Below, in pieces: positions 2,010-63,162 of a stretch of DNA of 64,000 bases (its first letter is position 1; each line of letters starts with the position of its first letter). The stretch covers positions 18,451 to 82,450 of the forward strand of contig JADZBO010000261.1 of the NCBI GenBank assembly GCA_020851995.1, read 5' to 3'. The position numbers and the translations under genes were made by a program. Source of the DNA: Burkholderiaceae bacterium. GTDB lineage: Bacteria > Pseudomonadota > Gammaproteobacteria > Burkholderiales > Burkholderiaceae_B. The notes under the pieces were generated by a model that worked only from the letters and a program-made list of their open reading frames with translations, was not told the DNA's origin and did not search any database.

Positions 2010-2789
2010 CTACGCGGCGGTCCATCCGCCGTCGACCATCAGCGCCGACCCGGTCACCATCGCCGAAGCGTCGCTGGCCAGGAAAACCACGGCCCCCATC
2101 AGATCCTGCGGCTGTCCCACGCGACCCAATGCGATTTTCGAATGCACCATCTCCATGAATGCGGCATCCTCAAACATTCCACGGGTCATGGCGGTCTCGA
2201 TGAACGTCGGACAAATCGTGTTGACACGGATTCCCGCATGCCCGACTTCCCAGGCAAGCGCCTTGGTCATTCCTTCCACCGCATGCTTGCTGGCGCAATA
2301 GACCGTGCGTCGAAATCCGCCGACGTGGCCCATCTGGGATGAAATATTGATCAGGCTTCCAGGCAGACCTGCGTCAAGCAACCCCCGAACCACCTCGCGG
2401 GCGACATAATAGGCCGCCTTGACGTTCAGTGAGAGGATCGCATCAAGGTCTTCGTCAGTCGTTTCGGTCATGAGATTCGGACGATTCATCCCGGCATTGT
2501 TCACCAGGATCTGCATTGGCCCGAGCCGGGCGACGCCGGCGGACACGGCAGCAGAATCGGTCACATCGACCACCCAGGGAGTCGCGTGCCCGCCCTGCGC
2601 ACGCACGCGCGCACATGCCTCGCTGACTTCCGCGCTGTTGCGCGCGGCCACGACCACGTGGGCACCCGCTTCAGCCAGAGCCATGACCGCAGCCAGACCA
2701 ATGCCCCGGCTTCCCCCCGTCACCAGCGCGCGGCGACCATCCACCCTGAAACTTGGCGTTTTCACATTGTTTCCCCATGATGCGGCCAT
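2010..2789 (-). CDS. SDR family NAD(P)-dependent oxidoreductase
   Basis: A 259-residue classical short-chain dehydrogenase. Visible motifs are the coenzyme loop TGGSRGIG (about residues 22-29), NNAG after strand beta-4, the active-site YCASK (Tyr and Lys four apart), and a C-terminal VTGSALMVDGGWTAA that is typical of the family. It most resembles 3-oxoacyl-ACP reductase or gluconate-5-dehydrogenase type SDRs, and the real substrate cannot be read from sequence. It is transcribed away from the glycosyltransferase gene that starts about 130 bases further right, so the two share an intergenic promoter region (2790-2916). Confidence 0.88.
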   Translation of the reverse strand: MAASWGNNVKTPSFRVDGRRALVTGGSRGIGLAAVMALAEAGAHVVVAARNSAEVSEACARVRAQGGHATPWVVDVTDSAAVSAGVARLGPMQILVNNAGMNRPNLMTETTDEDLDAILSLNVKAAYYVAREVVRGLLDAGLPGSLINISSQMGHVGGFRRTVYCASKHAVEGMTKALAWEVGHAGIRVNTICPTFIETAMTRGMFEDAAFMEMVHSKIALGRVGQPQDLMGAVVFLASDASAMVTGSALMVDGGWTAA

Positions 2790-2916
2790 GAGCGGAGCGC
2801 CCGGGCGCGTGACTCAGATGATCATTATGCATCTGCGCGCCAGACATGCGCAAACTGGCCGAGGGCCGCCGCACGGCGTGCGTTTATACTGCCGCCTCAG
2901 GCAAGGAACGCACCCT

Positions 2917-4470
2917 TTGGAACCTTCAAATCCCGCAGGCCATGTCACGCAGGCGCAGGCGCAGGCGCTCACGCGCCGCCTGCTTGCGTTGCTTGCGCTC
3001 GGCCTGGTCATTCACCTTGTATTCGGGTGGCTGCTGACGCTGTCCGTCGACGAGGCGCACTACATGTACTACGCGTTGCGCCTCGACTGGAGCTACTTCG
3101 ACCATCCGCCGCTGGTCGGCTGGGTCCAATGGCCCCTGATTGCGATCAACGCGCCGGTCGGTGCCATTCGTCTGGTGCCGCAGGCCTTGTGGCTGGTCTC
3201 CTGCCTGTTGGCCTGGCGCCTGGCCCGCAATCTCCACGGTGTAGTGTCTGCCTGGCCAGCCCGCCTGGCGCAAAGCGCCGGCGTCTGGGCGGTGGGGCTG
3301 GCCCTGCTCGCCCCGGTGATGCATGTGCTCGCGGTCGGATTGCTGCCCGACACGTTGCTGATGACCCTGACACTGGCCCTGATGTCGGTCACGCTCTCGC
3401 TGGCGCAACCCGCGCGCGACGACGCACGGCAACTGGGCACCTGGATCGCGCTGGGCGTATTGCTCGGTCTGGCCGGGCTCGCCAAATACACGGCCATTCT
3501 GGCCGCCGCAGCGGTCGTCGTTGTGCTGACCATGCGCCGCGGCCCGAAGGTACTGGCGACTGCTGGCCCCTGGATCGCCACGCTGGTTGCCGCCGTCATG
3601 GTAGCTCCGGTTTTCTACTGGAATGCCACGCACGACTGGATGTCCTTCGCATACCAGCTCAACCATGGCGCCGGCGGCACCTGGCAGCTTCGCCGGCTCG
3701 CAGCCTTCTTCGGTGTGCAAGTGCTCGCCTATGGGCCGCTGCTGTTTCTGGGGACCGCGGTGGCCATACGCCAGGTCTTGCGCGGGCGCGATTGGGATGC
3801 CGCAGCGCTGATGTCGTTCTTCGCGATCCCGTTCGCCGTAACCGCCTGGATGTCGGGCGGTGGCGGAAGCCTCCCCCACTGGACTGCACCGGCCTGGCTG
3901 GCCATGACGCCATTCGCGGCCAACGCCGTCGCGGGGATGTGGGACAGCGGTCGCCACGCGCTGATCAAAGCACTTGCCCGCACGCAGGCCGTGATTTGCC
4001 TGCTCGCCTTCGTCGTGCTCTTTTTTGGGGGACTTCCCGGCATTGGGCAGAATCACCCCCTGGGCCGCAAGAACCCGATCGCCGACTTGTGGGGCTGGGA
4101 CGATGCCGGCGCACGTGCCCGTGCCATCGCTGCTGAACGCGGTGTCGCGGCGCTCGCGGTCGGCAACTGGACGCTCGCCAGCCGACTCGCCTGGTATGCC
4201 CGACCACTGCCGGTCCATGTCATCGACGATCGGGTCGATCAGTTCGACCTCTGGTTCGGCCCGGTCAAGCCCTCGAGCGACGCAATTTACCTCGCGTGGT
4301 CGCAAATGCCCCTGGATCTGCCGGTCGGTCCGGCCAGGTTCGCGTCGTGCGATCTGATCGGCGATCTCGACATTGCGCGACTTGGCCGCGTCCTGTCGGA
4401 TTTCAAGTTCTATCATTGCAGGAACTGGGACACCCTGACGGCCTCAGGAAGTACCATGAGGAAACCGTGA
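2917..4470 (+). CDS. ArnT-like membrane glycosyltransferase (GT39/GT83, PMT_2 domain)
   Basis: About 517 residues with many hydrophobic helices. The first periplasmic loop carries VDEAHYMYYALRLDWSYFDHPPL, the acidic DEAHY and YFDHPP signature of undecaprenyl-phosphate-sugar dependent transferases such as ArnT. These enzymes move a sugar from a polyprenyl carrier to lipid A or another envelope acceptor on the outer face of the inner membrane. I chose the TTG at 2917 because AAGGA lies about nine bases upstream and because the longest ORF (from 2419) would run through the opposite SDR gene. The stop overlaps the next start (GTGA), so the two are coupled. Acceptor and sugar are unknown. Confidence 0.8.
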   Translation: MEPSNPAGHVTQAQAQALTRRLLALLALGLVIHLVFGWLLTLSVDEAHYMYYALRLDWSYFDHPPLVGWVQWPLIAINAPVGAIRLVPQALWLVSCLLAWRLARNLHGVVSAWPARLAQSAGVWAVGLALLAPVMHVLAVGLLPDTLLMTLTLALMSVTLSLAQPARDDARQLGTWIALGVLLGLAGLAKYTAILAAAAVVVVLTMRRGPKVLATAGPWIATLVAAVMVAPVFYWNATHDWMSFAYQLNHGAGGTWQLRRLAAFFGVQVLAYGPLLFLGTAVAIRQVLRGRDWDAAALMSFFAIPFAVTAWMSGGGGSLPHWTAPAWLAMTPFAANAVAGMWDSGRHALIKALARTQAVICLLAFVVLFFGGLPGIGQNHPLGRKNPIADLWGWDDAGARARAIAAERGVAALAVGNWTLASRLAWYARPLPVHVIDDRVDQFDLWFGPVKPSSDAIYLAWSQMPLDLPVGPARFASCDLIGDLDIARLGRVLSDFKFYHCRNWDTLTASGSTMRKP

Positions 4471-10118: not shown

Positions 10119-11180
10119 TTAATACGCGCGTAAGCGCGCGACCAAAGCCTCCCCAGTTTGCCGGGTCCCCAGGCTGCCGCCCATGTCGCGCGTCGACTCG
10201 CGCGCGGCAATCGCCTGGGCAACGGCTTCATCCAGCGCATGACCTGCCTGAATGAAGTTCTCCCTGCCCTCGCGTTGACCGTACCAGGTCAGCAACATGC
10301 CCGCAGAGCACACCTGCGAAAACGGATTGGCGATGTTCTGGCCGGCAATGTCGGGCGCCGAACCGTGCGCTGCCTGCGCCATCGCATATTTGGTTCCGGA
10401 ATTGATCGAAGCCGCCATGCCCAGACTGCCAGACAACTCGGCGGTCAGGTCCGACAGGATGTCACCAAACATGTTGGTGGTGACGATCACGTCGTAGCGC
10501 TCCGGGGCGCGAACCACGTGTGCCATCATCGCGTCGACAATCACCTCGTCGACACGCACGTCGGGGTAGTCGCGGGCGACCAACTGGCAGGAATCGATGA
10601 ACATGCCGTCACCCAACCGCAGCACGTTGGCCTTGTGGACTACCGTGACATGCCTTTGCCGCGTCATCGCCAGATCGAAGGCCGCCCGCGCAATCCTCTC
10701 ACAGCACGGGCGCGTAATGCGGCGCAGCGAGACCACGACATCCGGCGTGATCAGCATTTCGCTACCGCCGGATTCAATGTTGCGATCCGCGTAAAACCCC
10801 TCGGTGTTTTCGCGCACAACCACGAGATCAAGCTTGCCGTAGCGCGAACCGCTGCCTTCATAGGTGCGGGCCGGGCGAATATTGGCAAACAGGTCGAGAT
10901 TTTTCCGGAAATACTTCGACGGATTGATCTCGCCACGCGACTCGTCCTTGAAGTCATAGGTCGACATGGGCCCGAGGATCAGGCCATCGGCAGCCTTGAC
11001 CCGATCGAGCAGTTCGGGACGCACGGTCGTGCCGTATTGCCGGAGGCTGTCATGGCCTGCCACATCAGGCTGCAAATCCAGTCCGAGCCGGAACCTGGCG
11101 TCGACTGCTTCGAGCGACGCGGTCGCGACCGCCACAGTTTCGGGGCCGATGCCGTCGCCCGGTAGCACGATAATCTTCAT
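10119..11180 (-). CDS. Isocitrate/isopropylmalate dehydrogenase family protein
   Basis: A 353-residue beta-decarboxylating dehydrogenase. It has MKIIVLPGDGIGPE at the N-terminus, VVRENTEGFYAD (substrate loop), VVHKANVLRLGDGMF with the catalytic lysine, and FGDILSDLTAELSGSLGMA with the metal-binding aspartates. The NAD loop reads AAHGSAPDIAGQNIANP where LeuB has EPVHGSAPDIAGKNIANP. It is not placed with leuC or leuD, so it is more likely a tartrate/malate- or homoisocitrate-type member than LeuB; the actual substrate cannot be settled by eye. It is divergent from the PaaI gene across a 159-base gap that holds a paired TTGTAC motif. Confidence 0.8.
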   Translation of the reverse strand: MKIIVLPGDGIGPETVAVATASLEAVDARFRLGLDLQPDVAGHDSLRQYGTTVRPELLDRVKAADGLILGPMSTYDFKDESRGEINPSKYFRKNLDLFANIRPARTYEGSGSRYGKLDLVVVRENTEGFYADRNIESGGSEMLITPDVVVSLRRITRPCCERIARAAFDLAMTRQRHVTVVHKANVLRLGDGMFIDSCQLVARDYPDVRVDEVIVDAMMAHVVRAPERYDVIVTTNMFGDILSDLTAELSGSLGMAASINSGTKYAMAQAAHGSAPDIAGQNIANPFSQVCSAGMLLTWYGQREGRENFIQAGHALDEAVAQAIAARESTRDMGGSLGTRQTGEALVARLRAY

Positions 11181-11259
11181 ATACAGGATTCCTGATCAGT
11201 AGCGTGATGCCCCAGTCTTATGGCGCAACAATAGGCTGGTACGCTGAAACGTAGCCTCT

Positions 11260-11275
11260 TGTACGAACTTGTACA
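11260..11275. promoter_or_regulatory. TGTAC-N6-GTACA inverted repeat in a divergent promoter region
   Basis: TGTACGAACTTGTACA lies between the divergent dehydrogenase and thioesterase genes. It is both an inverted repeat (TGTAC...GTACA) and a ten-base direct repeat of CTTGTAC. The spacing suits a dimeric helix-turn-helix repressor such as a GntR-type protein. No regulator gene is adjacent, so this is a candidate operator only. Confidence 0.35.
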
Positions 11276-11339
11276 CTCTGCGCAAGTTGACGCGCAAGTC
11301 GCCGAATTGAACTGAACCCAACAGGAAGCACGAACCGCC

Positions 11340-11918: not shown

Positions 11919-12407
11919 ATGCACAATGATCTATCGGGCCCCGCTGGGGACATCCTGCTGCGCATAGGCCTTGCATTGCTGTCCGGCCTGATCCTCGGGC
12001 TCAATCGCTGGTTGCACCACAAACCCGCCGGAATCCGTACCCACAGCCTGGTTGCCGTCGCCGCAGCCGCCGCGATGCTCTTGATCGACAACCACATGGG
12101 AACCGATGCGCAGGCACACAGCCGCGTGCTGCAGGGCCTGCTCACCGGCATTGGCTTTCTGGGCGCGGGCGTCATCATTCGCGAGGCCAACTCGCGACAC
12201 GTGCACGGTTTGACCACCGCAGCGAGCCTCTGGGCCAGCGCGCTGGTCGGCGCGGCGTTCGGTGCCGGACACCTGATGCTCGGCACGGTAACGCTCGGCG
12301 CGATCATGCTGGTGTTAATACTGGGCGGCAGGCTGGAAAACCTGATCGGGCGCTGGTTCAACCGCTCTCCCACTCCGGACAAGAGCGACAAGAATCAGGA
12401 AACCTGA
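11919..12407 (+). CDS. MgtC/SapB family membrane protein
   Basis: About 162 residues with four to five hydrophobic helices and the family pattern GLILGLNRWLHHKPAGIRTHSLVAVAAA...GIGFLGAGVIIRE...VHGLTTAASLWASALVGAAFGAG. MgtC proteins help growth at low magnesium and inside macrophages, partly by restraining the F-type ATP synthase; the short form seen here lacks the C-terminal ACT-like domain. The start is uncertain: ATG 11919 gives the normal N-terminus, while the ORF track begins at a GTG at 11865 that would add 18 residues without hydrophobic character. Function beyond the family is unknown. Confidence 0.8.
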   Translation: MHNDLSGPAGDILLRIGLALLSGLILGLNRWLHHKPAGIRTHSLVAVAAAAAMLLIDNHMGTDAQAHSRVLQGLLTGIGFLGAGVIIREANSRHVHGLTTAASLWASALVGAAFGAGHLMLGTVTLGAIMLVLILGGRLENLIGRWFNRSPTPDKSDKNQET

Positions 12408-12455
12408 ACACTTCACGACTCCTGTCCCGGGTTGCAGCAACGGCACAGCACCAGC

Positions 12456-12476
12456 GTGCAGCGTTCAACGCTGCAC
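12456..12476. terminator. Perfect 21-base palindrome between convergent genes
   Basis: GTGCAGCGTT-C-AACGCTGCAC is a perfect inverted repeat: a nine-base-pair stem with a TCA loop as RNA. It lies between the convergent mgtC-like and mtnA genes. There is no following T run, so it may work as a bidirectional Rho-aided stop or 3' end stabiliser rather than a classical intrinsic terminator. Confidence 0.4.
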
Positions 12477-12516
12477 TAGTCCGCCGAAGTGGCTGGCATC
12501 GTTGTCGGCACCCCGG

Positions 12517-13572
12517 CTACAAAAACAGCGACGCGAGCGCATCACGATCCGGGTTGCGCACCACGCCCTTTTCGGTCACCAGCGCCGTGACCAACGCGGC
12601 CGGTGTGACGTCAAAGGATGGGTTTCTGACTGAAACGCCGTTTGGGGCCCAGCGGCATTCACGAAAGCCCAACACCTCCGCCGCAGCACGCTCCTCGATG
12701 GGGATTTGTTCGCCGGTGGCGATCGTGAGATCGATCGTTGAAAGTGGGCACGCCACATAAAAAGGGATGTGGTGCCTTTGCGCAAGCACCGCAACCATGT
12801 ACGTCCCGATCTTGTTGGCCACATCTCCGTTGGCCGCCACGCGGTCAGCACCGACTATGATGGCGTCGATCTGACCCTGTTGCATCAAGTGCCCCGACAT
12901 GTTGTCGGTAATCAGCGTCACCGGGATACCTTCCTGCACCATTTCCCAGGCAGTCAGCCGGGCACCCTGGAGAAAAGGCCGCGTTTCGTCCGCAATGACG
13001 GAAATGCGTTTTCCCGCCGCGACCGCCGACCGGATGACGCCCAGGGCCGTGCCGTGCCCGGCGGTGGCGAGCGCCCCCGCGTTGCAGTGCGTGAGCACGC
13101 GTGCGCCATCGGCCAGGAGTTCAGCTCCAAATTGGCCCATGCTTCGATTAATGCGTATATCCTCGTCGTAAATGGCTTGCGCCTCCGCCAGCAGCCGCAA
13201 TGCGAGGGCCGGGTTCGACTCCTGTTGGCCCGATTGCCAGACGATCCGCATGCGTCGCAATGCCCAGAAAAGGTTGACAGCGGTCGGTCGACTGGCCGCG
13301 AGCAGCTCAATGCCGTGTTCAAGCGTTTGATCGAACACCGCCTTAGGCAGGTGTTGGCAACGCAATGCCTCCAGGGCTACCCCGAATGCGGCGGCTACGC
13401 CGATCGCGGGCGCGCCGCGCACGACCATGCTGCGAATGCCCTCGGCCACACCTTGCGCAGAGTTGTACGAGATGTAGACGACACGCTCGGGAAGCGCTCG
13501 CTGATCGATCATCTCGAGCGTGTCGGCGCGCCAGCGCAGCGTCTCCACGGAAACTCCTTCCGAACTGAACAT
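12517..13572 (-). CDS. mtnA: S-methyl-5-thioribose-1-phosphate isomerase MtnA
   Basis: A 351-residue cytoplasmic enzyme that converts methylthioribose-1-phosphate to methylthioribulose-1-phosphate. RGAPAIGVAAAFG near residue 52 binds the phosphate; the catalytic cysteine is in THCNAGALATAGHGT (Cys163) and the catalytic aspartate in VGADRVAANGD (Asp243), matching Cys160 and Asp240 of the Bacillus enzyme. The end IDLTIATGEQIPIEER is typical of MtnA rather than eIF2B subunits. It is last in the operon mtnP - aldolase - mtnA, nine bases after the aldolase stop. No mtnB, mtnC or mtnD is present here, which points away from the universal methionine salvage route. Confidence 0.93.
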   Translation of the reverse strand: MFSSEGVSVETLRWRADTLEMIDQRALPERVVYISYNSAQGVAEGIRSMVVRGAPAIGVAAAFGVALEALRCQHLPKAVFDQTLEHGIELLAASRPTAVNLFWALRRMRIVWQSGQQESNPALALRLLAEAQAIYDEDIRINRSMGQFGAELLADGARVLTHCNAGALATAGHGTALGVIRSAVAAGKRISVIADETRPFLQGARLTAWEMVQEGIPVTLITDNMSGHLMQQGQIDAIIVGADRVAANGDVANKIGTYMVAVLAQRHHIPFYVACPLSTIDLTIATGEQIPIEERAAAEVLGFRECRWAPNGVSVRNPSFDVTPAALVTALVTEKGVVRNPDRDALASLFL

Positions 13573-42282: not shown

Positions 42283-43701
42283 TCAGGTACGCACGATATG
42301 CACGCTGCAGGGCGCTTCTTCGACAATCTTGGTCATTGAGGTCCGCCATGGCGTGACTTTGGCGGGAATCTTGTGCGATGCGCCGATCAGAATCAGCGCA
42401 GCATCGTTGTCCTGTGCGAACTCGACGATGCGCGACGCCGGATCCATGGCCTCGAGCACATGGCACGACAAGCGCTCAGGGGGCAATTCAAGCGGCCGCG
42501 CCCATTGCATCAGCTGGACCAGGTGTCCACGCACAATACCGCTGGCCGATTCGGCCTCCTTGCGCCCATCCATCGCAGGGGTGCTGCCGATGGTGCTCAC
42601 ACACGCAAGCCGGCTTTCCGGCGACCCCTGGAGTAATTGACGCACGGCAGCAAGCATCCGCTCGCGCAATTCGGCGTCCAACTGGCGGGTATCGATCGCC
42701 GCGACGATCAGCGGTGCATCGTCGCTCCCCGCGCTGGGTTTGGCTGCCGGTGATGGTTCGTAGCCCGCCCCGCGCCACCAGCGTTTGACGTTGGCCCAGA
42801 AGCCCAGCGACTCCAGGCGATTGGCACGCTCGGTCAGGCGGACCTGATCCGGTTCGCGCAAACACTGGCGCAAACGGGCCGCGGTCTGATAGCGATCGGC
42901 GGCTAACGCTTCCATGCAGCGCAGGATGATTTCCTGCAGCCAGGGTGGTGTGTCCGGGCGCAACTTGCGCGGGGGTTCCGGCTGTGCCCAGAGGCGGCGG
43001 CGCAGTCCGCGCAAGGACTGCGGACTGCCGTGGGGCAACTCGCCGGTCAGCAATTCGTAGAGAATCGCGCCGATCGAGTAGATATCGCTGCGGTAGTCCT
43101 CGCGGACCCCTTTGACCTGCTCGGGCGAGATATAGGGCGCAGAGCCCACGCCCTCGCGCATTTCTTCCGCCAGCAAATCGGGGAACTGTGCATGATGAGC
43201 CAGACCGAAATCGATGAGTGTCAGCTTGCCTTCGTCATCGATCAGGATGTTGTCGGGCTTGAGATCGAGGTGAATCGCATCCTGCGCGTGCAATGACTGC
43301 ACGGCCTTCGCAAGCTCCGCCCCGATCTGTACCACCTCCTCGATCGAAAACTTCTTGCCAGCCTTGATGGCGTCTTCCAGAGGCCGGCCGCTGACGCGCT
43401 CCATCGCGATGTACGGCCGCGTGGCCATGTTGCCCGCGCCGAGGAACCTGGGCACATAGGGACTCTTGAGCGAGCGCAGGATAATCAGTTCGGTCTCGAA
43501 CCCGATCAGACTTTCGACAGGCTGATTGCGACCGACCCGCGGAATCTTGATCAGGATGGGAACATCGATGCCTTCCTTGGTTGCCGACATCAGCACCGCC
43601 ATGCCACCTCGGTGCACCTCCTCGCCAAGCAGGAATCCGTCGACGACGTTGCCTGCCTGGAATACTTCGTCGACCGCCAGGATTTCGGGCCCGGAACTCA
43701 T
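42283..43701 (-). CDS. Ser/Thr protein kinase fused to a universal stress protein domain
   Basis: A 472-residue two-domain protein. Residues 20-280 form a Hanks-type kinase: ILIKIP (ATP lysine), AIHLDLKPDNILID (catalytic loop, HLD in place of HRD), LTLIDFGLAH (Mg), GSAPYISPEQVKG (activation segment) and SDIYSIGAILYELLTGELP. A basic linker (WANVKRWWRGAG) leads to a UspA-like domain (PLIVAAIDTRQLDAELRERM to ALILIGASHKIPAKVTPWRTSMTKIVEEAPCSVHIVRT), which often binds ATP. No transmembrane helix is seen, so it is cytoplasmic. It follows a metallophosphoesterase gene by 16 bases, suggesting a paired on/off phosphorylation module. Confidence 0.87.
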   Translation of the reverse strand: MSSGPEILAVDEVFQAGNVVDGFLLGEEVHRGGMAVLMSATKEGIDVPILIKIPRVGRNQPVESLIGFETELIILRSLKSPYVPRFLGAGNMATRPYIAMERVSGRPLEDAIKAGKKFSIEEVVQIGAELAKAVQSLHAQDAIHLDLKPDNILIDDEGKLTLIDFGLAHHAQFPDLLAEEMREGVGSAPYISPEQVKGVREDYRSDIYSIGAILYELLTGELPHGSPQSLRGLRRRLWAQPEPPRKLRPDTPPWLQEIILRCMEALAADRYQTAARLRQCLREPDQVRLTERANRLESLGFWANVKRWWRGAGYEPSPAAKPSAGSDDAPLIVAAIDTRQLDAELRERMLAAVRQLLQGSPESRLACVSTIGSTPAMDGRKEAESASGIVRGHLVQLMQWARPLELPPERLSCHVLEAMDPASRIVEFAQDNDAALILIGASHKIPAKVTPWRTSMTKIVEEAPCSVHIVRT

Positions 43702-43717
43702 GGTGGATTTATGCAGA

Positions 43718-44470
43718 TCAATGCCCTGTAATCAGTCGGTTGGCGAGGGATTCCGGCAAACCGGCATCACGAACCTTTTCAGCCGCCGTGAAATAATCGT
43801 AGGGCACCCGGTGAAATGTGATGAGTTCGGAATTCGGTTCAAAGAGCGCCATGCAGGCGTCCGGATTGCCGTCGCGCGGCTGCCCCATCGAACCGACCAC
43901 ACTCACCCAGCGGCGCAGGCGCGACACTGGCACGTCACGGCCGGGATGCGGCTCAAAGCGCCTGAGCTTGCCGATCTCGGTCTGATAGAACAATTGGGGT
44001 TCGTGCACGTGGCCGACAAAGGTGTAGGTTTTGCCGGATGCCTCGGCACACTTCCAGGCGCCCATATCGTCGCTGACATAATTCCAGCGATCCGGGTTGT
44101 GCGCCGATGCGTGTACGAAGCAGATGTCTTCCTCGTTGATCACCAGCGGCAGCCCGCGCAGGAATTCCATTTGCGCGCTGCTGACCTGCTCGCGGGTCCA
44201 GTTCACAGCAGCCAGCGCGTCAGGGTTCATCTTTTCGCTATGGTCGACGAACAATGCCTGATCATGATTGCCGAGGACCGCCTGGGCCTGACCGGCGCGC
44301 ACCATCCCGGCGACCCGGTCGATCAGCGCACAGGGATCAGCGTTGTAACCGACGATGTCGCCGAGGAACACATACCGGGTGGCTCCGAGATACCGGGCAT
44401 GCGCCATGCACGCCTCGAAGGCCTCAAGGTTGCTGTGCAAATCGGCGAGAAGGGCGATGCGTTCAGTCAT
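43718..44470 (-). CDS. Calcineurin-like metallophosphoesterase
   Basis: A 250-residue enzyme with all metallophosphoesterase motifs: LADLHSNLEAF (D-x-H), FLGDIVGYNADP (GD), VLGNHDQ (GNHD), FVHASAHN and TFVGHVHEPQL (GH-x-H). The set is the dinuclear-metal core of the family that includes protein phosphatases such as PrpA and diadenosine tetraphosphatases. Being the first gene of a pair with a Ser/Thr kinase makes a phosphoprotein substrate possible, but the sequence alone does not prove it. Confidence 0.85.
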   Translation of the reverse strand: MTERIALLADLHSNLEAFEACMAHARYLGATRYVFLGDIVGYNADPCALIDRVAGMVRAGQAQAVLGNHDQALFVDHSEKMNPDALAAVNWTREQVSSAQMEFLRGLPLVINEEDICFVHASAHNPDRWNYVSDDMGAWKCAEASGKTYTFVGHVHEPQLFYQTEIGKLRRFEPHPGRDVPVSRLRRWVSVVGSMGQPRDGNPDACMALFEPNSELITFHRVPYDYFTAAEKVRDAGLPESLANRLITGH

Positions 44471-51656: not shown

Positions 51657-53390
51657 ATGTTCGACGCTTTTCCGCTCGATCCACTGCTCCGCAATGAATA
51701 CTTCAGGACCACGGCAATGATGCTGACCTTGCACGATCCCCAGCGAGCCAGACACTACTACGACACCGGTGTATGGCAGAACGACACGCTCTATACGCTG
51801 CTGCGCCGTCATGCGCTTGAACAGCCCGATGCCATCGCGCTGCGCGACCCGCACACGACGCTCACCTGGCGTGGCCTGTTTGACGAGGTTGAGCGCGTCG
51901 CGGCCTCGTTGCATGCGAGCGGTTTACAGCGTGGCGACCGGGTTGCCATCTGGTTGCCGAGTCGTGTCGAATGCGTGGCGATCTTCCTGGCCTGCTCCCG
52001 CAACGGCTATGTCTGCTGCCCTTCGCTTCACCAGAGCTATACCGCGCCAGAGATCATCGCGCTGCTCAAACGCGTCCGCTGCAAGGCATTCTTCACGATG
52101 CCGGGCCACGGTGCCGAGACTGCGGCAAACCCGGTGTTTCCGTTGCTTGCCGAGGCTCCCGATCTGAAACGGACTTATGTGCTGGGCGGCGCCCTCGGTG
52201 CCGGCGCACCCTCGATTGACGGTGCCACGCCCTACCCCGACGCGACCGTGCAGCCCTGCGATCTGGAGCCGGACCTCAACCCGGACAAGGTCACCTACCT
52301 GGCCTTTACCTCGGGCACCACCGGCCTGCCCAAAGGGGTCATGCACAGTGACAACACGCTGCTCGTCAATGGCCGGACGATGGTGGCGGACTGGCACCAT
52401 GACCGCGACACCATTCTGCTCTCGCTCAGCCCCATGAGCCACCACATTGGCACGGTGGCGATGGAACAATTCCTCGTCGCCGGCATGCAACTGGTCATCC
52501 ACAACCCGGCAGCGGGCAAGGCCGCGCTCGATTGGGCGCTGGAGACCGGTGCCACCTACGTGATGGGTGTGCCGACCCACGCCATGGATATTCTTGATGA
52601 GTTGCGCCGCCGCGGCGATGAACGTCTGGGCAAGGTGCGCACGTTTTACATGGCCGGTGCGCCGATTCCCCTGGAATTGGCTGAGCAGTTTCTGCGCATT
52701 GGCATCACGCCCCAGAATGTCTATGGGATGACCGAAAACGGCTCGCACCAGTACACCCTGCCGACCGATCCCACGAACACCATCGTCGGCACCTGCGGCC
52801 GCTCGGGCGCGGGGTACGAAGTGCGGATCTTCGACGCCGAGAATCCCGATCTCGAGTTGCCCGTGGGTCAGGTGGGCGAAATTGGCGGGCGCGGCGGTCA
52901 GCTCACGCTAGGCTACTATGACGACCAGATCGCGACCGAAAGCTCGTTCAATAAATCCGGGTGGTTCATGAGCGGAGACCTTGGCGTGCTCGATACGCAG
53001 AACTGTCTGCAGATCGTCGGGCGCAAAAAGGATCTGATTATCAGGGGCGGCCACAATATTCATCCGGCCCGCATTGAGGATCTCGCGCATCGTCACCCGG
53101 GAATCGCCAAGGCGGCGGCGTTTCCGGTCGCCGACGAGCGCTTGGGCGAAAAGGTCTGCCTCGCCATCATCGTGCGACCCGGTTTCGCGCTCGCGGCAAC
53201 CGAGGTGCTGCAGCACCTGCACGACACCGGACTCTCCCGCTACGACATGCCCGAATACTTCATTGCAATGGATGCTTTCCCCCTCACGGCAAGCGGGAAG
53301 ATTCTCAAGCGCGATCTCAAGGAGATGGCGACACGGGGCGAGATCTCCCCTGAACCCGTACGCTGGAACGCGCGGGTTGCGGGCGCGTGA
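51657..53390 (+). CDS. AMP-forming acyl-CoA ligase (cyclohexanecarboxylate/medium-chain acyl-CoA ligase-like)
   Basis: A 577-residue adenylate-forming enzyme. FTSGTTGLPKGVMHSDN is the ATP P-loop, VYGMTENGSHQY is the acyl-site A5 motif, WFMSGDLGVLD and GRKKDLIIRGGHNIHPARIEDL are A7 and A8, and LTASGKILKRDLKE holds the catalytic lysine. It forms an acyl-AMP and then the CoA thioester. A start at 51717 (MMLTLHDPQRARHYY) has a better ribosome site (AGGACC) and may be the true one. Its company (two CoA-transferases) suggests several carboxylates appear in the pathway. Confidence 0.88.
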   Translation: MFDAFPLDPLLRNEYFRTTAMMLTLHDPQRARHYYDTGVWQNDTLYTLLRRHALEQPDAIALRDPHTTLTWRGLFDEVERVAASLHASGLQRGDRVAIWLPSRVECVAIFLACSRNGYVCCPSLHQSYTAPEIIALLKRVRCKAFFTMPGHGAETAANPVFPLLAEAPDLKRTYVLGGALGAGAPSIDGATPYPDATVQPCDLEPDLNPDKVTYLAFTSGTTGLPKGVMHSDNTLLVNGRTMVADWHHDRDTILLSLSPMSHHIGTVAMEQFLVAGMQLVIHNPAAGKAALDWALETGATYVMGVPTHAMDILDELRRRGDERLGKVRTFYMAGAPIPLELAEQFLRIGITPQNVYGMTENGSHQYTLPTDPTNTIVGTCGRSGAGYEVRIFDAENPDLELPVGQVGEIGGRGGQLTLGYYDDQIATESSFNKSGWFMSGDLGVLDTQNCLQIVGRKKDLIIRGGHNIHPARIEDLAHRHPGIAKAAAFPVADERLGEKVCLAIIVRPGFALAATEVLQHLHDTGLSRYDMPEYFIAMDAFPLTASGKILKRDLKEMATRGEISPEPVRWNARVAGA

Positions 53391-53431
53391 CTTCTCACAA
53401 AAATTTTGATGAATTGACACAAGGAACTTCA

Positions 53432-54307
53432 ATGAGCGACATCAGGACCATCGGCATCGTCGGTTGCGGCACCATGGGAACGGGCATCGCGATCGTCTGC
53501 GCGCGGGCGGGCTTCATCACACGCGTCTTCGACGTGCGTCCCGAGCCCCTCGAAGGAGCACGAAAGCAGATCGCAGCCTTTTTGCGCAAATCGGTCGAAC
53601 GCGGCAAACTGGCCGCCGGCCAGGATGAGGCGATCCTCGCCCGCCTGCATACCTCCACTCGCATCGAGGATTTCGCGGATTGCGACCTGGTGATCGAGGC
53701 CGTTTTCGAAGACCTCAAGGTCAAACACGCGATCTTTTCGCAGTTGAATGCGATTTGCCCGGAACACACGATTTTTGCTTCCAACACTTCGACGATTTCG
53801 ATCACCGAGATCGCCGGCGGCAGCGGTCGTGACGACCGTTTTGTGGGCATGCACTTCTGCCTTCCGGCGCAACTGATGAAGCTCGTCGAAATGTCGCCGG
53901 GAATCAACACCTCCGAAGAAACGTTCGAGCGCGCCTGGAAAGCCACCATCGCGCTGGGCCAACACCCGGTGCGCACGCGCGACACCCCGGGCTTCATCCT
54001 CAACTACTTCCTGGTTCCCTGGCACAACGATGTCATTAACCTGGTCGATCAGGGCGTCGCGACGCCAGCTGACATCGATCTGGCAGTGAAGACGGCACTT
54101 GGCTATCCGCTTGGCCCGCTCGAACTACTTGACATGGTCGGCATGGATACGCAAAAGCTGCTTTGCGAGGCGCTGCACGGCGTGACCAATGAACCGCGCG
54201 CGGCCTGCCCGCCGCTGGTGAGGCGCATGATCGGCTCGGGACGTCTGGGACGCAAGACCGGACGCGGATTTCACACCTATGACAGCAAAAAGATTTTCGG
54301 GGCCTGA
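53432..54307 (+). CDS. 3-hydroxyacyl-CoA dehydrogenase, NAD-binding plus first C-terminal domain
   Basis: A 291-residue enzyme: RTIGIVGCGTMGTGIAIVCARAGF is the NAD Rossmann loop, DLVIEAVFEDLKVKHAIF and ASNTSTISITEIA are conserved, and GMHFCLPAQLMKLVEM provides the catalytic His with Glu downstream. The C-domain (TPGFILNYFLVPWHNDVINLVDQGVATPADIDLAVKTALGYPLGPLELLDMVG) is complete. The ATG at 53432 has AAGGAAC upstream. The stop TGA (54305-54307) is followed in the same frame by ATC ATG, the start of the next gene; together they would equal a PaaH-type two-domain dehydrogenase of about 514 residues. Confidence 0.87.
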   Translation: MSDIRTIGIVGCGTMGTGIAIVCARAGFITRVFDVRPEPLEGARKQIAAFLRKSVERGKLAAGQDEAILARLHTSTRIEDFADCDLVIEAVFEDLKVKHAIFSQLNAICPEHTIFASNTSTISITEIAGGSGRDDRFVGMHFCLPAQLMKLVEMSPGINTSEETFERAWKATIALGQHPVRTRDTPGFILNYFLVPWHNDVINLVDQGVATPADIDLAVKTALGYPLGPLELLDMVGMDTQKLLCEALHGVTNEPRAACPPLVRRMIGSGRLGRKTGRGFHTYDSKKIFGA

Positions 54308-54310
54308 ATC

Positions 54311-54979
54311 ATGACCTACAAGATTATCCAGCACGGGGAAAGCCGATCGTTTCCCGACCACCATCCGTTCGTCGCACACGCCAACCCTGACGGCCAGGGC
54401 AGCGTGTTCATCGGGTCGCAGGCCGCCGGCGCGTTTCAGGCGCATCGCGAGATCGTCTCGCAGTCCGGTTTCGTGGCAATCGAACTGGGGAACGAGTGCC
54501 TTGGCGTTCACCTGAGCGACGACGCGGGCCCGGACAACGTCGTCGGCTTCGCGCGGTTTCGCATCGGTGATGCGGCACCGACTGACCTGGTGGAATTGGT
54601 TCGGATGCCCTACACCAGCACGCAGGCGCTGGACAGCGCACGGCTTGCGTTTGAGGCGGCCGGACTCAAGGTCGCGGTCTGCAATGACTTTCCGGGCCGG
54701 ATTCTGAACCGCCTGCTGCGTCCGTATTACAACGCGGCACTGCGGCGTCTGGACGAAGGGCTCGCTTCGGCAGCGGATATGGACACCACGCTGCGACTCG
54801 GCCTGGGCTATCCCGAAGGTCCGATCGCCTTGCTGACCCGTACGGGCCTGCATCACCATTTTGAAGTGACACGCGACCTGTACGAGCAACTCGGCCAGGA
54901 GGCCTATGCTCCAGCCCGACGCGCACGCAATGCGTGGTTGCGGCGTCAGCGCGAGGAGGACGGTGATGCAACCGCTTGA
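54311..54979 (+). CDS. 3-hydroxyacyl-CoA dehydrogenase C-terminal half (split PaaH-like)
   Basis: A 222-residue protein that lacks the G-x-G-x-x-G loop but keeps a worn Rossmann-like part (GFVAIELGNECLGVHLSDDAG) and a full second 3HCDH_C domain (NDFPGRILNRLLRPYYNAALRRLDEGLASAADMDTTLRLGLGYPEGPIALL). This is what the second half of two-domain PaaH-type proteins looks like. It is in frame with the gene before it, with one codon between stop and ATG. It likely forms a complex with its neighbour, unless a TGA readthrough or mutation is involved. It overlaps the next gene by 14 bases. Confidence 0.8.
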   Translation: MTYKIIQHGESRSFPDHHPFVAHANPDGQGSVFIGSQAAGAFQAHREIVSQSGFVAIELGNECLGVHLSDDAGPDNVVGFARFRIGDAAPTDLVELVRMPYTSTQALDSARLAFEAAGLKVAVCNDFPGRILNRLLRPYYNAALRRLDEGLASAADMDTTLRLGLGYPEGPIALLTRTGLHHHFEVTRDLYEQLGQEAYAPARRARNAWLRRQREEDGDATA

Positions 54980-56072
54980 AGGCGTCAAGGTCCTGGACTT
55001 CAGCACCCTGCTGCCAGGACCGATGTGCACGCTGCTGCTGGCTGACGCCGGCGCGGATGTCATCAAGATCGAACGGGCGCAGGGCGATGAGATGCGTTCG
55101 TATGTCCCGAAGTTCGGCACCGACAGCGTTAATTTCGCGCTGCTCAATCGCGGCAAGAAGTCCATCGTGGCGGACCTTAAATCGCCGGAAATTCGCGCCC
55201 GCATCGAGGCACTGTTGCGTGAGGCCGATGTGCTCGTCGAGCAGTTCCGCCCCGGCGTGATGGATCGCCTGGGTCTGGGTTACGCGGACGTCTCGAAGAT
55301 CAATCCACGCATCATTTATTGCTCGATCACCGGCTACGGGCAGGATGGGCCTTACGCGCAGGTCGCTGCGCACGATCTGAACTATCAGGCGCAGGCGGGA
55401 ATGCTCAGCCTCGCAGCCGACGATACCGGCAAACCCATCGTGCCAGCCGTCCTGACGGCCGATCTCGCAGGCGGCGCGTACCCGGCCGTCATGAATATCC
55501 TGCTGGCGCTGCGCCAGCGTGATCTCAGCGGAGCCGGCTGTCACCTTGACGTGTCGATGGCCGACAACCTGTTCACGCTGATGTACTGGGGACTGGGCAA
55601 CGGCTGGACATCCGGCGAATGGCCAACGCCGGCGGGCGATCTGGTCACGGGTGGCAGCCCCCGCTACCAGATTTACGAAACCGCGGACGGCCAATACCTT
55701 GCGGCGGCTCCGCTTGAAGATAAATTCTGGGGAAATTTCCTGGCGCTCATCGGCGCACAGGAATTGCGGGAAGACCCCGATGCGCGCGCCGTGCAAGCCA
55801 AAATAGCGGCGATCATCAAGACCAGGTCCGCCCAGGCATGGCTGGCGATCTTCGAAGGCCATGACACCTGCGTTTCGCGGGTACTCTCACTCGATGAAGC
55901 GACCGAGGACCCGCACTTCCGGGCGCGCGGGGTTTTCGCGCGACGCCTCGCCGCCGCCACGGGGGAGTCGATTGCAGCGCTGCCAACGATTGTCAATCGC
56001 GCCTTCCTTGCACCCAGGGCGGATAGCGCTTCACCCGAACTTGGACAACACACACAGGAAATCTTAAAGTAG
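54966..56072 (+). CDS. CaiB/BaiF family CoA-transferase (second of the operon)
   Basis: A 368-residue class III CoA-transferase of the alpha-methylacyl-CoA racemase-like branch: LEGVKVLDFSTLLPGPMCTLLLADAGADVIKIERAQGDEMR at the start, SITGYGQDGPYAQVAAHDLNYQAQAGML with the catalytic Asp in HDLNY, and ISRVLSLDEATEDPHFRARGVF near the end. In racemases of this fold, Asp and a His do the chemistry; H-D-L-N-Y is the racemase-like signature, so racemase activity is an alternative. The ATG at 54966 lies inside the previous gene, hence translational coupling. Confidence 0.87.
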   Translation: MQPLEGVKVLDFSTLLPGPMCTLLLADAGADVIKIERAQGDEMRSYVPKFGTDSVNFALLNRGKKSIVADLKSPEIRARIEALLREADVLVEQFRPGVMDRLGLGYADVSKINPRIIYCSITGYGQDGPYAQVAAHDLNYQAQAGMLSLAADDTGKPIVPAVLTADLAGGAYPAVMNILLALRQRDLSGAGCHLDVSMADNLFTLMYWGLGNGWTSGEWPTPAGDLVTGGSPRYQIYETADGQYLAAAPLEDKFWGNFLALIGAQELREDPDARAVQAKIAAIIKTRSAQAWLAIFEGHDTCVSRVLSLDEATEDPHFRARGVFARRLAAATGESIAALPTIVNRAFLAPRADSASPELGQHTQEILK

Positions 56073-61086: not shown

Positions 61087-63162
61087 TCAGAGGCTGCGTT
61101 CGCCGGGTGCCGAGCCCGCGGGCGGAGTCAGGTCGTCGCGCATCTGCTGACGCGGGATCAACCCCTTTGTGGTTCCGAAGAACATGTCCCCCGGTGACTG
61201 CACGTTGGGATCCATCGGTCTGTCCGAAAGTTGAGGTGCCGACCGCGGCGCTGGAACCGGGCTTGCGGCGGATTTTTCCGCAGCGGCCCGATCTGCCGCA
61301 GCCTGCGCTTCAGCCTTTTGGATCGCGACCCTTTCAGCGGCAGATTTTTCAGCGGCTGCTTTATCCGCAGCGGTCCTTTCGGCGGCAGCCTTCTCAAGAG
61401 CCGAAGCCCTTTCTGCTGCGGTCTTCTCGGCAGCAGCCCGCTGCGCAGCAGCGCTCTCTGCGGCGGCTTTCTCGGCGGCAACTCTTTCAGCGGCAGCCTT
61501 TTCAGCGGCAGTTCTCTCTGCTGCTCTCTCAGCAGCAGCCCGTTCAGCCGCAGCTCTTTCCGCGGCAGCCTTCTCAGCGGCAGCCCTCTCAGCCGCGGCC
61601 TTCTCAGCAGCAGCTCTCTCTGCTGCTCTCTCAGCAGCAGCCCGTTCAGCCGCAGCTCTTTCCGCAGCAGCCCGTTCAGCCGCAGCCCGTTCAGCCGCAG
61701 CTCTTTCCGCAGCAGCTCTCTCAGCAGCGGCCCTTTCCGCTGCAGCTTTTTCAGCGGCAGCTTTTTCAGCGGCAGCTCTCTCCGCGGCTCTCTCAGCAGC
61801 CGCCTTTTCAGCAGCAGCCTTCTCAGCAGCAGCCTTCTCAGCAGCAGCCTTCTCAGCAGCAGCCTTTTCCGCTGCGGCCTTCTCAGCGGCAGCTCTCTCT
61901 GCTGCTCTCTCTGCTGCTCTCTCAGCAGCAACCCGATCAGCCGCAGCTCTTTCCGCTGCAGCCCTCTCCGCGGCGGCCCTTTCCGCTGCAGCTTTTTCAG
62001 CGGCAGCTCTCTCCGCGGCTCTCTCAGCAGCCGCCCGTTCAGCCGCAGCTCTTTCCGCTGCAGCTCTTTCCGCTGCAACCTTCTCAGCGGCAACCTTCTC
62101 AGCGGCAACCTTCTCAGCGGCAACCTTCTCAGCAGCAGCGCGTTCAGCAGCAGCCCTCTCCGCTGCAGCTCTTTCCGCTGCAACCATCTCAGCGGCAACC
62201 TTCTCAGCAGCAGCCTTTTCAGCAGCAGCGCGTTCAGCAGCAGCCCTCTCCGCTGCAGCTTTTTCGGCAGCAACCCGTTCAGCCGCGGATCTTTCCGCAG
62301 CAGCCCGTTCCGCGGCAGCTCTCTCAGCAGCCGCTTTCTCGGAAGCCGCCTTTTCAGCCGCGATCTTCTCAGCAGCTGCTTTTTCGGCAGCAGCACGCGC
62401 AGGTGCTTCGGACTGAAGCACAGCGGCGCGTTGCGACAACTCGGCCGCCTTGTCGGGTTTGCCGATCAGGCGATAGGTTTGCGATGCGGTGCGGGCAACC
62501 TCGGGGTCGCGTGGTGCAAGGGAAAGTGCGGACTGCAAAGCTGAGTCGGCAAAACGGCCATCGCGCGCCTGTGCGGCGATGACAGCCGCAGCAAGCTGCG
62601 CTTGCGGATTTCTTGGATTGGAAACCGCGAGATCCCGGGCAACATCCATTGCACGCGCAGTATCGCCAGCCATCGCGTAAAGGCGGCCAAGCAACCCAAG
62701 AGCTCCGACATCTTTGGGGCGTTGCGCGAGCAACGGTGTCAGCTTCTCATACGAGGCCGCGAGCTGCCCCCTTTCCTGAAGCGCAGCAGCATCCCAGACG
62801 CCCTGCGAAAACGCCAGGTCGTCGTACTGCTCGCGCTGCGCGGGTGTGAGCTGACGGTCTCGCAGCGCCCTCAGTACCGCGCCACTTTCGACGCCCTGCC
62901 CGGTCTGTTGCAATGCCGCCGCATAGCGCAGTTGCAGATCAGGGTCGCTTGCCCCCTTGCCCATCATCAGTGTGCGCAACTCGCGCAAGGCCCTGGCCGA
63001 CTCCTCGACCCCGGTCACCTGCGCAAACGGCGCAGAACAAATCGCCCAGAGCACAACCAGCGTACATCCCGCAAGCGTACCCTTGCCGGCGCGCCGCGGC
63101 ACGCCCCCCCGCCGGAATGGAGGCGTCGTTCGCCGCAGCAATGCCATTTTTTTCGTCGTCAT
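61087..63162 (-). CDS. TPR-like protein with a very long alanine/glutamate (AAAEK) helix
   Basis: A 691-residue protein. A basic N-terminus and a hydrophobic stretch ([21 protein letters not shown], about 28-48) suggest export or anchoring. Residues about 50-250 carry TPR-like helices ([45 protein letters not shown] and [36 protein letters not shown]). Residues about 255-630 are roughly 75 units of AAAE(K/R), a predicted single long alpha helix like TolA domain II, reaching tens of nanometres. The end [22 protein letters not shown] is unstructured. I infer a periplasm-spanning scaffold; its partners are unknown. The shadow ORFs on the plus strand are repeat artefacts. Confidence 0.8.
61270..62400. 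repeat. Degenerate 15-bp repeat tract coding the AAAE(K/R) helix
   Basis: On the minus strand the unit is GCNGCNGCNGAGAAG or GCNGCNGCNGAAAGA with varied synonymous bases, and now and then a 12-base unit. The synonymous variety shows that the amino-acid pattern has been kept by selection while the DNA has drifted, unlike the near-identical short arrays elsewhere in the window. Several local blocks are exact copies, which suggests recent slippage on top. Confidence 0.9.

Follow-up and report, generated by a model that had tools for sequence, protein, structure and literature searches.

The closest described enzymes are the PaaH/PaaC-type 3-hydroxyacyl-CoA dehydrogenases (TIGR02279 and NF006124; PDB 3mog), each of which is one chain. 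The two adjacent genes studied here lie in a window of 64,000 nucleotides, which is the whole stretch of DNA that was analysed. They resemble the PaaH/PaaC-type enzymes in domain order, in approximate total length and in carrying the catalytic residues in the first half. However, they encode two polypeptides, and the N-terminal part of ORF2 is strongly diverged. Similar pairs are annotated as two CDS on complete plasmids of Achromobacter, Sphingomonas, Cupriavidus, Aminobacter and Ancylobacter, and RefSeq labels both members of such pairs "3-hydroxyacyl-CoA dehydrogenase family protein". The pairs on the Achromobacter, Cupriavidus and Aminobacter plasmids share with the window the same two genes, their order, their close spacing and a downstream CaiB/BaiF gene. 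In those plasmid operons, acyl-CoA dehydrogenase, enoyl-CoA hydratase and SDR genes stand beside the pair, whereas in the window a ligase gene is directly upstream. One-gene fusions were found on plasmids of Salipiger abyssi and Celeribacter indicus (499 and 504 aa); these keep both parts and their order, but as a single polypeptide with a short linker. A literature search for a split PaaH or for this operon returned nothing relevant. The features of the window locus were as follows.

51657..53390, + strand: acyl-CoA ligase (AMP-binding, PF00501), the upstream gene of the operon
53421..53426, + strand: AAGGAA, Shine-Dalgarno-like sequence of ORF1, read in the sequence
53432..54307, + strand: ORF1, from ATG at 53432 to the TGA at 54305-54307, 291 aa, kept in relatives
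54299..54302, + strand: GGGG, Shine-Dalgarno-like sequence of ORF2 inside the last ORF1 codons, GGAG in nearly all relatives
54305..54307, + strand: TGA, read as the genuine stop of ORF1, at the point where two-gene relatives stop with TGA, TAA or TAG
54308-54310, + strand: ATC, the one codon between the ORF1 stop and the ORF2 start
54311..54979, + strand: ORF2, from ATG at 54311 to the stop at 54977-54979, 222 aa
54953..54959, + strand: GAGGAGG, Shine-Dalgarno-like sequence of the downstream CoA-transferase, read in the sequence
54966..56072, + strand: CoA-transferase family III (CaiB/BaiF, PF02515), overlapping ORF2 by 14 nt

The earlier note had described ORF1 as ending in TGA, followed by ATC and then by the ATG of ORF2 in the same frame, and the coordinates and the reading of the sequence bore this out. 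It had also assigned the two ORFs a PaaH-type domain order. This agreed with the Pfam search, in which ORF1 matched PF02737 (199.5 bits) and PF00725 (92.8 bits), both far above the cut-offs of about 22 for the 3HCDH family, and the only domain of ORF2 was a second PF00725. Alignment to solved enzymes placed the catalytic set Ser120, His141, Glu153 and Asn191 in ORF1; the correspondence to S137, E170 and N208, mutated in the human enzyme, was made by motif spacing and entry titles. Judged from these matches, ORF1 is a complete single-domain catalytic 3-hydroxyacyl-CoA dehydrogenase. The domain search gave no match to PF02737, the NAD-binding domain, in ORF2. At the position of the catalytic His, ORF2 has Ala81, while Glu95 (present in 18/18 aligned relatives) and the conserved Asn133 are retained. 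The structural model of ORF2, of moderate confidence (mean pLDDT 74.9), resembled the later part of 3HCDH enzymes, including 3mog. ORF2 is a half-Rossmann-like part joined to the second (helical) 3HCDH domain, and probably a non-catalytic partner.

In profile comparison, the two ORFs aligned in order to the two halves of the NF006124 and TIGR02279 models. The scores were far below the curated cut-offs of these equivalogs: ORF1 reached 251 bits against 669.4 for TIGR02279 and 299.8 bits against 508 for NF006124, and ORF2 scored lower still. PaaH equivalogs are also single polypeptides, whereas the window and 60 further pairs have two genes. ORF2 occurs once in the genome of the window, and contig C76 of that genome separately carries a one-chain PaaH-type gene of 510 aa that is intact.

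Relatives of ORF2 were found in 43 of the 269 family genomes and in 15 of the 399 sampled genomes of the order, the window's own genome being included in both counts, as well as in 28 named contigs and, at a coverage of at least 80%, in 13 plasmids. A class-wide search of a spread sample at E<=1e-40 matched the own genome alone; the relatives were therefore collected by family and order searches. Wherever a locus extended far enough to reveal the upstream gene, ORF1 lay directly before ORF2. Three fused genes and L115, a broken gene of the fused type, were set aside, which left 61 distinct two-gene pairs, from Burkholderiales and Alphaproteobacteria and with complete plasmids included. In the nearest relative, an independent assembly (L007/L036), the junction was the same and ORF2 was 92% identical. 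Compared with this relative, dN and dS were 0.020 and 0.547 for ORF1 and 0.047 and 0.871 for ORF2. Because dN is well under dS, both ORFs are, by this measure, under purifying selection and maintained as proteins.

Some of the collected loci had peculiarities of their own. The search reported one TGA within the ORF2 match range at G474:C2:121746-122411, and the junction survey found ORF2 open there (L114); the TGA in question probably lies where the match ends. Four environmental MAGs (L048, L050, L058 and L062) are titled Bordetella parapertussis. By their gene pair they stand nearest to freshwater Alcaligenaceae, and the names look wrong.

Besides the two plasmid fusions, the ORF1 and ORF2 parts were also joined in a single open frame, about 500 aa long, in a relative from the family (L111). 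We built a tree from the joined sequences, with PaaH-type enzymes as the root. In it, the fused genes formed a clade (support 100) within the two-gene family, inside another clade of support 100 that also held two-gene members; the taxon sample was modest and the basal supports were 86-87. The tree did not include the pair L101, whose extracted sequence contained stops that arose from an uncertain start position. Because the fused clade nests inside the two-gene family, the simplest history suggested by the tree has an old fission and, later, a single re-fusion. In another relative of the fused form, L115 (G601:C1:162895-163395), the frame seems broken in the ORF2 part.

Do the two products act together? 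They are encoded by separate genes, and the retention of Asn133 and Glu95 in ORF2 would fit an ORF2 that works alone, with nothing in common with ORF1 but the operon. We consider such a pair of independent enzymes unlikely. ORF2 lacks both the NAD-binding domain match and the catalytic His, and its constant place right after ORF1, together with its fusion to ORF1 in one lineage, argues for a joint function.

The frame shared by ORF1 and ORF2, with a single intervening codon, suggested a second possibility, that programmed readthrough of the TGA yields some one-chain enzyme from the window locus. The same junction in the nearest relative is consistent with it. In the 61 pairs, however, the spacer, with the alignment start as reference, was 2 nt in 21, 4 in 13, 5 in 11, 6 in four, 3 in three, 1 in three, 7 in two and longer in four, so that 57 fell within 1-7 nt. 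ORF2 was in frame with ORF1 in nine pairs and out of frame in 52. The in-frame arrangement is thus no commoner than expected by chance (9/61). In a readthrough gene the stop should be in frame with the extension in relatives, and in those 52 pairs a fusion by readthrough is impossible. The stop was also TAA or TAG in some pairs and TGA in others. RNA folding against shuffled sequence revealed no readthrough-promoting structure near the TGA beyond that of the shuffles; the RNA around and after the stop folded worse than they did (z +1.05 and +1.84). In addition, the conserved GGAG start signal would be unneeded. Readthrough, one of the options of the earlier note, is therefore very improbable. 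That note had also held that separate orthologues with different spacing would speak against a special in-frame stop, and this is what we found. Because the gaps vary, 52 of the 61 pairs are out of frame and the plasmids annotate two genes, we read the TGA at 54305-54307 as a true stop and the shared frame in the window as a coincidence, produced by random variation of a short spacer.

The earlier note had also proposed a point mutation. That a fused PaaH-type gene recently gained a nonsense codon, or was misread during sequencing, has next to no chance of being correct: it would explain only the shared frame and the PaaH-type domain order, while the independent assembly has the same junction, the two-gene relatives end ORF1 at the same point, and the one-chain PaaH-type gene of this genome is intact on contig C76. 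An assembly error at the junction was ruled out by the relatives and the independent assembly.

The end of ORF1 seems to carry a start signal for ORF2. In 29 of 31 pairs the penultimate codon of ORF1, which encodes Gly, was GGA; only the window and its sister had GGG. By comparison, GGA made up 79 of the 784 Gly codons in the ORF1 body (about 10%). This bias fits a Shine-Dalgarno site for ORF2 within the end of ORF1. In the commonest arrangement, GGAG lies about 7 nt before the ORF2 start, which is a normal Shine-Dalgarno distance. A short spacer and a start signal inside the upstream gene, the marks of a coupled pair, are both present, and translational coupling of ORF1 and ORF2 is likely. 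According to published work (PMC10666635), termination-reinitiation is favoured when genes lie very close together, and short overlaps are over-represented between genes whose products belong to one heteromeric complex. However, termination-reinitiation is best documented for overlaps of -4 and -1 nt, the commonest ones in that study (PMC10666635), whereas the gaps here are mostly +2 to +5, and the window has GGGG instead of GGAG. Coupling over gaps of +2 to +5 nt is thus plausible rather than proven.

Around the pair, the downstream CoA-transferase gene is kept in most relatives. Immediately upstream, most relatives carry genes for an acyl-CoA dehydrogenase and an SDR, but neither stands there in the window or its sister. 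Contig C149 of the window's own genome (G000) has two copies each of acyl-CoA dehydrogenase (12161-13327 and 2318-3484) and enoyl-CoA hydratase (10570-11280 and 640-1404), close relatives of the plasmid-operon genes; the operon in the window has neither of the two. The pathway's substrate would be a CoA ester on which the ligase/CoA-transferase operon acts. Elsewhere in the window, the minus strand has a 691-aa ORF (61087-63162) in which imperfect repeats rich in Ala, Glu and Lys form a long run. At 42283-44470, also on the minus strand, is a protein kinase-like gene whose C-terminal part is universal-stress-like and which adjoins a metallophosphoesterase-like gene (translations read by eye).

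Taken together, we consider it probable (about 0.85) that the two intact adjacent genes encode separate halves of a PaaH-like dehydrogenase, a two-subunit enzyme of ancient split, probably coupled, in a CoA-ligase/CoA-transferase operon. The ORF1 product would be the NAD-binding catalytic subunit. Most likely, the ORF2 product pairs with it in the manner of the second half of the one-chain enzyme, and the two may form a heteromer. Ribosomes finishing ORF1 would start ORF2 a few nucleotides on, aided by the Shine-Dalgarno site within the Gly-Ala-stop end of ORF1. Of the real fission with coupled reinitiation suggested in the earlier note, the fission stands, although as an ancient, family-wide one and not as an event at this locus; the coupling is likely, as far as the sequences can tell. 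We lean slightly towards the wider view that this is a widespread obligate two-subunit dehydrogenase with a degenerate, non-catalytic second subunit, which underwent fission and then re-fusion and serves an uncharacterised CoA-ester degradation pathway. The explanation is an ordinary one; what is modestly new is the history of fission and later refusion. The analysis dispels a false alarm, as there is neither recoding nor a broken gene at this locus. The occurrence of two-gene and one-gene forms of the same enzyme in one family makes the pairing of the subunits testable.
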